DNA from: an uncultured Prevotellaceae bacterium
GTDB lineage: Bacteria > Bacteroidota > Bacteroidia > Bacteroidales > Muribaculaceae
Length of the DNA stretch: 57,667 nucleotides
NCBI GenBank assembly: GCA_947165485.1
Contig: CAMVAP010000016.1
Coordinates: 1 to 57,667, forward strand
Reading direction: 5' to 3'
The position numbers and the translations under genes are program-made. The notes under the pieces are model-generated. The model did not search any database, was not told where the DNA came from, and saw only the letters and a list, made by a program, of their open reading frames with translations. Below, piece by piece: positions 25,703-57,519 of this stretch. The first letter of the stretch is position 1. Every line of letters starts with the position of its first letter.

Positions 25703-26138
25703 GGTAGTCATTCCATTCTATTCCAGCATTGAGCAGGTGTTTGCGGTATTCATCTTCAAAAGATTCCCGTTGATGATGCATACGCTGGTTCTTAATGTAA
25801 TTTGCTACCATTTCTTTGTCGCGCAAAGCGTAGGTGAAGGCTCCGTACTCCTTTCCCCATCCCGCAAATTGCGGGAATAAGTCTCGATTCTGCTTGATCC
25901 ACTGGCTGGTTGACAGCTTGATGTCACGCACCAGGTCGGACAAACGCACTGACGGATGCAGGTTGATCAACAGGTGGATGTGATTCTCAATGCCGTTGAT
26001 GGCAAAAAGGGTCGATTGGGAATTCTGCACCACGCAGGCGATATACCGGTACAACTGGTTGGACGATGCCAGAGGCAATGTCATCTCACGACAGTGGGTG
26101 TTGATGACAATGTGATAGATGGCTGTGACGGCACTCAT
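25692..26138 (-). CDS. REP-associated tyrosine transposase (IS200-like Y1 family)
   Basis: A 148-residue single-strand transposase-like protein. The metal-binding HUH motif is seen as NHIHLLINLHPS, and the catalytic tyrosine is most likely in MVANYIKNQRMHH. Other family features are AIYHIVINTHCRE near the start and FAGWGKEYGAFTYALRDK. The gene lies between two inverted multi-hairpin arms that begin within 10 nt of its 3' end and 63 nt before its start, the layout expected for a RAYT and its own REP-like substrate. Confidence 0.88.
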   Translation of the reverse strand: MSAVTAIYHIVINTHCREMTLPLASSNQLYRYIACVVQNSQSTLFAINGIENHIHLLINLHPSVRLSDLVRDIKLSTSQWIKQNRDLFPQFAGWGKEYGAFTYALRDKEMVANYIKNQRMHHQRESFEDEYRKHLLNAGIEWNDYRLT

Positions 26139-35395: not shown

Positions 35396-36697
35396 ATGGC
35401 CACCACGATTGATAACATACGCGATCTGCGCATCGCCGACTATGATTACCCCCTGCCCGATGAGCGCATCGCCAAGCATCCCCTCACCGAGCGCGAGCAG
35501 TGCAAACTCATCTATTATAAAACAAGCGACCGAGTAATCCAGGAGCACCGTTTCTGGGAAGTGCCCGCATTGCTGCCCCAGGGCGCTACACTCATCTATA
35601 ATAACACGCGCGTGATCAATGCCCGCCTACGCTTCCGCAAGGAAACCGGCTCAACCATTGAAATCTTCTGCCTCGAACCCATACTGCCGCACGATTACGA
35701 GCAGATATTCCAGACCACGGGCCATTGCGTCTGGCAATGCCTCGTCGGCAACAGCAAGCGATGGAAACAAGGCCCCCTCACCCACACCTTCACCATCCAA
35801 AATGGGACAAAGGGACGGTTCTTTTGTCCCAATTTAGCCAATAATGGGACAAAAGAACCGTCCCTTTGTCCCATTACGCTCACGGCTACCCGTGGCGAGC
35901 AGCGCGGCAATGCTTGGGAAATCGCTTTTGACTGGGATAATGAGCAATACACCTTTGCCGACGTGCTCGAAGCCATCGGCGAGATTCCTATCCCACCCTA
36001 TCTGAACCGTGGTACCGAGGCCAGTGACACAACCGACTACCAGACCGTGTATAGCCACATCGACGGCAGTGTTGCAGCACCCACCGCCGGCCTGCATTTC
36101 ACCGACGAGGTGCTGACCGAGTGTGACCGTCGCGGCATCACCCGGCGCGAGATCACCCTGCATGTGGGTGCCGGCACCTTCCAGCCCGTCAAGAGCGAGC
36201 GCATCGGTGACCACCCCATGCACTATGAGTTCATCAGCGTACCCCGCAGCGTTATCATGGACATCATCAATGCCCCCGGTCCCATCATCGCCGTGGGCAC
36301 CACCAGCGTGCGCACCCTCGAGAGCCTTTACTACATCGGACAAATTCTGGAAGACAACCCCGATGCCGACGAGCAGGCCCTCACCGTCACCCAGTGGATG
36401 CCCTACACCACCCCGTGTGAGATTTCGACCGCAAAGGCGTTGCAGAACATCGTCGATCACCTCGACCGACACCATGCCGACACCTATATGGGCAGCACCC
36501 AGCTGATGATAGCTCCCGGCTTTGAATATCGCATCGTGAGCGGTATGATCACCAACTTCCATCAGCCGCAATCCACCCTACTGCTCCTGGTCGCCGCATT
36601 TGTCGGCAACGACCAGTGGCGTGGCATATATGACTATGCCATGAACCATGATTTCCGCTTCTTGAGCTACGGCGACGCCCAATTATTGCTAAGATGA
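35396..36697 (+). CDS. queA: tRNA ribosyltransferase-isomerase QueA with a 25-residue palindrome-encoded insertion
   Basis: A 433-residue QueA, which transfers and isomerises the ribosyl part of S-adenosylmethionine to make epoxyqueuosine in tRNA. Family motifs include YDYPLPDERIAKHPL, NTRVINARL, AAPTAGLHFTDEVL, HVGAGTFQPVKSE and TNFHQPQSTLLLLV. Residues 136-160 are encoded wholly by a perfect inverted repeat (35801-35875), which adds 25 residues between FTIQ and TLTATRG, a place where I expect a short strand-loop-strand in relatives. The frame is intact, so the enzyme may still work. Confidence 0.93.
   Translation: MATTIDNIRDLRIADYDYPLPDERIAKHPLTEREQCKLIYYKTSDRVIQEHRFWEVPALLPQGATLIYNNTRVINARLRFRKETGSTIEIFCLEPILPHDYEQIFQTTGHCVWQCLVGNSKRWKQGPLTHTFTIQNGTKGRFFCPNLANNGTKEPSLCPITLTATRGEQRGNAWEIAFDWDNEQYTFADVLEAIGEIPIPPYLNRGTEASDTTDYQTVYSHIDGSVAAPTAGLHFTDEVLTECDRRGITRREITLHVGAGTFQPVKSERIGDHPMHYEFISVPRSVIMDIINAPGPIIAVGTTSVRTLESLYYIGQILEDNPDADEQALTVTQWMPYTTPCEISTAKALQNIVDHLDRHHADTYMGSTQLMIAPGFEYRIVSGMITNFHQPQSTLLLLVAAFVGNDQWRGIYDYAMNHDFRFLSYGDAQLLLR
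35801..35875. repeat. Perfect 31-bp palindromic repeat inserted in frame in queA
   Basis: Arms 35801-35831 and 35845-35875 are exact reverse complements (core GGGACAAAGGGACGGTTC / GAACCGTCCCTTTGTCCC) around a 13-nt spacer. The total is 75 bp, exactly 25 codons, with no stop in the queA frame. The 15-mer CAAAAGAACCGTCCC inside it also occurs twice at the right end of the window (57071-57085, 57497-57511). Confidence 0.95.
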
Positions 36698-56667: not shown

Positions 56668-57092
56668 CAATACCCCCCCTATGATTGTCAAACAACCGAG
56701 ACAACGCACTAACAACACGAACAACATTTATTCTCTTGGCATCCGCGTTCTTTTTGCCCCACGCTAAGGCGCGAAGGCGCAAAGTGGTTTTTCGTCAAAA
56801 AGCAATCGACCGTTTTTGACCCGTGATAGAGTAATCCGTTGATTTTCAGCATTTGTCTTGTACATCGCCCAACAAGAGAGGTGCGGGGGGATTGTTAACG
56901 AAACGTTAAACGCGTTTTCCAAGCCCACAACACAAAAGTAGCTCACCGCACCCACATCTGACCATATCAAAACGCATCCGCCCCAATTTTTAAAGACAAC
57001 AGAAACAACTTGGCCTTGATCAAGGCCACAACAGAGACAATCAGACAAAATATTGCCTAAAAAATTACATCAAAAGAACCGTCCCGATTTTC
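56668..57092. repeat. 425-bp tandem duplication, copy 1
   Basis: A direct repeat of ~425 bp that is about 98% identical to 57095-57519 (a few substitutions and short indels, for example C6 versus C4 near the start). It contains a TTAACG-AAA-CGTTAA hairpin, an 18-bp palindrome TGGCCTTGATCAAGGCCA (57011-57028) and the 15-mer CAAAAGAACCGTCCC also found in the queA palindrome. No convincing gene. The stretch 56546-56667 before it is the peptidase leader. Confidence 0.9.
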
Positions 57093-57094
57093 TT

Positions 57095-57519
57095 ACCAAT
57101 ACCCCCTATGATTGTCAAACAACCGAGACAACGCACTAACAACACGAACAACATTTATTCTCTTGGCATCCGCGTTCTTTTTGCCCCACGCTAAGGCGCG
57201 AAGGCGCAAAGTGGTTTTTCGTCAAAAAGCAATCGACCGTTTTTGACCCGTGATAGAGTAATCCGTTGATTTTCAGCATTTGTCTTGTACATCGCCCAAC
57301 AAGAGAGGTGCGGGGGGATTGTTAACGAAACGTTAAACGCGTTTTCCAAGCCCACAACACAAAAGTAGCTCACCGCACCCACATCTGACCATATCAAAAC
57401 GCATCCGCCCCAATTATTAAAGACAACAAAACAACTTAGCCTTGATCAAGGCCACAACAGAGACAATCAGACAAATTATTGCCTAAAAAATTACATCAAA
57501 AGAACCGTCCCGATTTTCC
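57095..57519. repeat. 425-bp tandem duplication, copy 2
   Basis: Second copy of the duplication, adjacent to the first. The GGCCTTGATCAAGGCC palindrome has lost a base pair in its left arm here (TAGCC). After it, sequence to 57613 is unique; it shows short gene-like stretches on both strands but no complete ORF. Confidence 0.9.

Follow-up and report, generated by a model that had tools for sequence, protein, structure and literature searches.

A REPIN-type palindrome read in frame within queA of an uncultured Bacteroidales bacterium and its probable link to RAYT-like transposases

How does a perfect palindrome come to lie, in frame and without a stop codon, inside a gene for tRNA modification, and what keeps its two arms alike? 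We asked this of queA in a 57,667-nucleotide stretch of DNA (the window) from an uncultured Prevotellaceae bacterium that GTDB places in the Muribaculaceae.

The queA palindrome and its repeat family

The features of the locus are the following:

35396..36697, + strand: queA, tRNA preQ1(34) SAM ribosyltransferase-isomerase, 433 aa, bearing the insert
35801..35875, no strand assigned: REPIN-type element, a head-to-head pair of REP-like units forming a perfect palindrome, queA codons 136-160
35803..35831, + strand: left unit, TGGGACAAA-GGGACGGTTC-TTTTGTCCCA (stem, loop motif, stem)
35832..35844, + strand: spacer of the doublet, 13 nt, 3 of the 13 bases differing from the spacer in the related genome G110
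35845..35873, - strand: right unit, the 29-mer of the left unit on the opposite strand, counterpart of the single unit in the related genome G085

The 433-residue frame scored 326 bits against the QueA profile of Pfam (cut-off 25) and exceeded the cut-offs of two NCBIfam equivalogs. An inverted-repeat search of the window bore out the exact 31-bp arms described by a first-pass annotation (35801-35831 and 35845-35875, with 13 nt between them), the runner-up repeat of the window measuring 20 nt at 85% identity. The same annotation was right about the open, stop-free frame of this palindromic repeat in a tRNA-modification gene, the 75 bp translating as NGTKGRFFCPNLANNGTKEPSLCPI. Each unit is a hairpin with the stem TGGGACA/TGTCCCA and the loop motif GGGACGGTTC, and each arm holds TGGGACAAAGGGACGGTTCTTTTGTCCCA or its complement, in itself near-palindromic (repeats I2 and I3). 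Taken singly and as DNA, the arms form hairpins of -8.4 and -8.0 kcal/mol; together they form one long hairpin (DNA -38.5 kcal/mol, RNA -57.3 kcal/mol, z about -13). A degenerate 27-base pattern of the unit matched the window twice, both times in the queA palindrome, and matched in none of 100 dinucleotide shuffles, which together with the recurrence of the palindrome in other genomes and protein clusters ruled out an origin by chance.

The assembly of the window's genome (3.03 Mb, 100 contigs, 92% complete) revealed a whole family. The 19-mer GGGACGGTTCTTTTGTCCC was present in 41 exact copies at 22 sites on 17 contigs, as against one match of the reversed-pattern control at up to three mismatches, and the 27-mer, at up to two mismatches, was found at 40 places and its reversed control at none. 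There are 17 head-to-head pairs at the 22 sites, one of them truncated where a contig ends, plus 7 further units; with 16 complete pairs in this arrangement, the queA element is best described as a REPIN-type doublet. Arms were identical in 15 of the 16 complete pairs although unit types vary among sites, a result equalled by random re-pairing of arms in 1 of 10,000 trials. By left arm, the outer bases of these pairs read ACACG in 11 cases, ACAAA in three and otherwise in two. Such identity fits spread as a pair and, equally, correction from arm to arm.

As in REPs, the units are palindromic, fall within 20-40 bp, are dispersed in high copy (29-bp unit, 41 cores) and pair in inverted orientation. 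They are also mostly extragenic: 20 of the 22 sites, judged by ORF reading, do not lie in frame within a long plausible gene, although an open frame does cross the repeat upstream of the likely start in a few cases. The genome-wide search with a count of in-frame genic copies, proposed in the first-pass annotation as a check, bore out a repeat family but not a habit of inserting into genes. No target-site consensus was seen by eye at the 22 sites. The GTAG or CGTC tag that marks the foot of REPs and REPINs is missing from the queA-type unit; by reading, GTAG was absent from the units at the sites in the assembly and at RAYT loci, and CGTC was confined to the loop motif on the opposite strand, with none at the hairpin foot.

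At two of the 22 sites, relatives confirm that the repeat lies in frame within a gene. Besides queA, the host is a 206-aa gene on contig C45 (L030:5876-6493) without a Pfam or NCBIfam match, to which the element adds about 24 codons. Among relatives of this gene (30 loci fetched, 22 aligned), G110 has a lone unit in this position and 20 loci are empty.

Filled and empty queA sites: history and selection

QueA was matched at E <= 1e-100 in 96 of 101 genomes of the genus, and 46 queA loci were read besides the window, including one from outside the genus (L064). Alignment of relatives, proposed earlier as a way to find the empty site, exposed it in 44 of the 46 (43 of them in the genus), with a turn that mostly reads D/E-G-x-x; for the remaining QueA of the genus, the reported matches mostly skip residues 136-159. 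G110 (L129) carries the full doublet at the same junctions as the window, and G085 (L130) carries one unit at these junctions and is 42 nt shorter. Three QueA protein clusters with the full insert (P0001, P0003 and P0004) were found among the best 120 of 1341, from 8000 candidates scored. P0001 represents 11 sequences on 4 contigs, among them the protein encoded in the window, P0004 is nearly identical to the QueA of G110, and P0003 is a further full-insert QueA. Cluster P0002, a 482-aa QueA, duplicates its own central region internally and is unrelated to the palindrome. An assembly or binning artefact might be suspected in a fragmented, 100-contig assembly of which contig C22 begins within a family repeat; the insert is nevertheless present in two other genomes and in further protein clusters, and we consider the chance of an artefact practically negligible.

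Compared with the empty relatives, the window's queA gains 21 codons net. The earlier statement that exactly 25 codons were added is correct for the length of the element and incorrect for this net gain over the 44 empty loci. A 25-codon element and a 21-codon gain mean that about four codons of the turn are gone, which rules out a clean insertion; a loss of some 12 bp is unexpected of clean IS200-type insertion. The carriers also have flank changes in common, ATCCAA before the insert and ACGCTCACGG after it. Perfect arms had been ascribed to a recent insertion or to upkeep, and the first of these options is at odds with two other species bearing the element at identical junctions. Given its presence at the same site in related species, the gene apparently tolerates and retains such elements in the long term.

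The QueA tree joined the window with G110 at a support of 0.998. In the RpoB tree, for which 28 chosen genomes were searched and 24 matched (G085 had no match and is hence unplaced), G006 was the partner of the window and G095 that of G110, the queA site being empty in G006 and in G095. The MenA tree also conflicts with the QueA tree. The discordance of the three trees contradicts vertical descent alone, and either recombinational transfer of the insert-bearing queA or several losses are needed to explain it. We favour transfer between species: the insert-bearing queA, common to at least three species, probably spread among them by recombination. The element could instead have entered a queA hot spot separately in each species, the insert being younger than the species. 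This would suit the small divergence within the insert and the fact that the carriers are not sisters by RpoB, but separate events would have had to produce the same junctions, the same lost codons, the same flank changes and the similar spacers of the window and G110, and to do so in QueA genes that group together with high support; we therefore hold independent insertion to be rather unlikely.

What, then, does selection keep? Against seven relatives, carriers as well as empty ones, queA showed a dN/dS of 0.05-0.08, and between the window and G110 the gene minus its insert gave a dS of 0.88 and a dN/dS of 0.077. Purifying selection of this strength suggests that QueA with the insert is probably still functional. 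Within the insert, synonymous changes between window and G110 affected 2 of 17.5 sites, compared with 139 of 268 in the rest of queA (Fisher p 0.0009, counts rounded), and 5 of 57.5 non-synonymous sites had changed, for a dN/dS of 0.75. Total change was not significantly reduced (7 of 75 positions in the insert vs 199 of 1194 in the rest, p 0.11), and the lower change in arms than in the spacer (4 of 62 vs 3 of 13) was weak at p 0.10; one base was altered identically in both arms. Because synonymous sites are conserved and amino acids are not, upkeep appears to act on the DNA palindrome, and it is this palindrome, not the encoded peptide, that seems to be maintained in queA. The conserved synonymous sites likewise favour arm upkeep among the two options for the perfect arms. 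The low synonymous change could in part stem from transfer of a short tract at a time after the species had parted.

Selection on the peptide is disfavoured by the same figures (dN/dS 0.75 inside the insert vs 0.08 outside), and they bear on the proposal that the peptide or the mRNA hairpin serves QueA, for example as a pause with a regulatory role or as the target of a double-strand-specific RNase. Such a function would agree with the same location in at least three species and with a very stable RNA hairpin (-57.3 kcal/mol). Yet amino-acid change is not avoided, G085 retains one unit alone, the nearest species by RpoB do without the insert, and the unit is found at 21 further sites, of which 20 fall outside the reading frame of any long gene, so that we judge a function for QueA very unlikely. 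A structural model of QueA (mean pLDDT 78.7, built on 32 sequences, three with the insert) places the insert between modelled strands 128-132 and 160-170. Residues 137-142 and 144-152 score less than 50 in pLDDT, and as modelled the insert is a turn without a predicted fold. Residues 199-232 were likewise poorly modelled. For the QueA structures 1vky, 1yy3 and 1wdi, the two alignments seen did not cover the insert.

RAYT-like genes and the units at their flanks

RAYTs of the genus are Y1 transposases of about 265 aa with NHVH and YIHQNP motifs. We read 49 loci from 55 RAYT rows, omitting five fragments and the second half of one gene already read. The loop motif, sought as the pattern GGG[AT]C[GA]GT[TC]C that was picked after inspecting the flanks, was located within 260 bp of the RAYT gene in 45 of the 49 loci and on both sides in 37; it was not found beside the RAYT in L265, L270, L271 and L273. 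Its density was much higher next to the genes, with 142 occurrences in about 25 kb adjoining them, compared with 29 in the other 133 kb of these loci. In the 122 units whose flanks are complete (20 were dropped), the stem averaged 7.5 bp and reached at least 6 bp in 87, as compared to a mean of 3.7 bp when flanks were swapped between RAYTs (maximum of 500 trials, 4.1 bp). In the RAYT tree, kindred proteins mostly bear kindred stems by eye. Stem pairing and tree together indicate that the loop is nearly fixed and that the stem tracks the transposase clade. At L107, L258 and L261, the RAYT-flanking units have the loop GGGACAGTCC in place of GGGACGGTTC.

The exact 19-mer of the window's family borders the RAYTs of G110, G085, G035 and G014, which lie in one clade of the tree; the RAYT loci of four relatives at which the queA-type unit borders the gene are L111, L114, L115 and L256. 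Within the window's own 92%-complete assembly, a RAYT of the GTCCC-stem clade was not found among the seven Y1 transposase matches to the PF01797 profile, six of which were over the cut-off. The sole RAYT-like gene of the assembly (C80:2-814) is clipped by the contig end. Both this gene and L115 scored 58 bits against NF047646 (REP_Tyr_transpos), below the curated cut-off of 80, and passed the Pfam cut-off for Y1_Tnp; as to the C-terminal helix-turn-helix of TIRYT and subclass 2.1 proteins, HTH_23 was matched weakly in L115 (E 0.095) and not at all in L100 or in the C80 gene (E up to 0.01). A further Y1 gene, at 25785-26123 (- strand) of the window, encodes a 150-aa IS200-like transposase with near-identical copies on C3 and C81.

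The flank of the C80 gene bears a sister repeat of the GATGT type, GGGACGGTTCTTTTGATGT, with 24 exact copies in the genome, two of them in the window. The window's copies (57067-57085, 57493-57511, - strand) are each inside a longer near-identical flank. One copy on C25 lies next to a fragment of 18 residues that matches the C-terminus of this RAYT exactly and, judging from this match, is probably the downstream repeat of the C80 RAYT. Units of the GATGT group depart from the stem rule, since they pair poorly with themselves as hairpins and have the look of inverted repeats at the termini of the gene; in relatives, inverted repeats border the C80-type gene, and their motif is one position off GGGGWSAS.

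At up to one mismatch, the core was detected in 28 of 150 genomes, that is, in 28 of 91 in the genus and in none of 59 others of the order. With one base left free, it was also found in Lachnospiraceae, Oscillospiraceae and other clostridial MAGs, among the named genomes in the matches listed, and the repeat core is thus not confined to the genus. Of at least 110 named loci with the core, at least five contained, according to tblastn, a relative of the RAYTs as well, three in this genus and two in clostridial MAGs, where the units are less symmetrical. In the clostridial MAG loci L243 and L215, the distance between a similar core and a RAYT relative (about 37% identity) is 81 and 352 bp, a hint of spread across phyla. 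Several of the named core-bearing records originate from rumen or abomasum samples.

In our view, the queA palindrome is very probably a REPIN of a RAYT-like system that has apparently long been tolerated and kept as DNA and has presumably moved between species with its allele. A REPIN consists of two REP units head to head, and it would be non-autonomous, served by RAYT-like (Y1, HUH) transposases of the genus, by which queA-type units would be mobilised. Probably, an enzyme of this type inserted a single-stranded, hairpin-folded copy into queA. The insert occupies the turn of a beta-hairpin, where about four old codons are gone, and the frame is retained. Complementarity of the arms may be preserved through mismatch correction, with the opposite arm or another genomic copy as the source, or through selection on the REP structure, and the peptide looks dispensable. 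The single unit of G085 could have arisen from the doublet by a frame-preserving deletion between direct repeats that are imperfect and 42 nt apart.

Known systems and significance

The element invites comparison with several described systems. Pseudomonas REPINs and REP doublets (PMC3116915) are known as short multi-copy palindromes, mostly in inverted pairs and linked to RAYTs, as is the case here; the present units differ in having GGGACGGTTC in the loop and no GTAG foot, in belonging to Bacteroidales and in being also intragenic. According to Di Nocera 2013 (PMC3733652), many genes contain REPs, those for tRNA pseudouridine synthase among them, and over half of these inserts are dimers or groups that encode 20-30 aa. 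These intragenic REPs and the Rickettsia elements RPE-4 and RPE-6 insert within ORFs, as happened in queA, and are set apart, by their description there, through GTAG or CGTC end tags that are absent from the foot of the queA unit. The same paper states that no transposase linked to CGTC repeats was found. A true Rickettsia-type palindromic element would be palindromic, in frame and apparently tolerated, just as observed. The queA family, however, has its conserved motif in the loop, lacks a CGTC foot tag and accompanies RAYT-like genes, and we give this assignment hardly any weight. The resemblance to Rickettsia elements noted in the first-pass annotation consequently applies to behaviour and not to family, which is REP/REPIN-like and linked to Y1 RAYTs.

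Further parallels exist in the flanks of other Y1 genes. PMC3733652 describes TIRYT transposases with terminal repeats, some sharing GGGGWSAS, and according to it and to PMC6006769 (Quentin 2018) some TIR families are self-complementary and multi-copy. For Bacteroidetes Y1 proteins of subclass 2.6, the latter mentions 'atypical secondary structures' in the flanks, and for TnpAY1 of subclass 2.1, it states that no REP-like sequences lie nearby. As in the RAYTs of the genus, TIRYTs and subclasses 2.1 and 2.6 are, in these accounts, Y1 transposases bordered by inverted repeats. Compared with TIRYTs as portrayed there, the motif of the genus agrees with GGGGWSAS in no more than 7 of 8 positions (by eye), and its stems vary by clade around a constant loop.

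With intragenic REPs and structures flanking Bacteroidetes Y1 genes in print, the kind of element is known. We found no description of a loop-tagged, stem-diversifying REP family in the open-access literature, where, among the matches listed for the loop motif, the titles looked unrelated. New, in that we did not find them in print, are the loop motif with clade-specific stems and the multi-species queA series. Whether these amount to a third class of REPs, tagged in the loop by GGGACGGTTC, with stems tracking the RAYT clade and with genic palindromes that are corrected between arms while their peptides drift and their alleles cross species, is a generalisation we put forward tentatively and with slightly more doubt than belief.

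The natural series of empty site, full doublet and single unit invites the questions of how REPINs enter genes, how their arms remain perfect and how much foreign loop a conserved enzyme can carry. With many RAYT clades, matching stems and a near-fixed loop in one genus, REP recognition could become readable from natural covariation.
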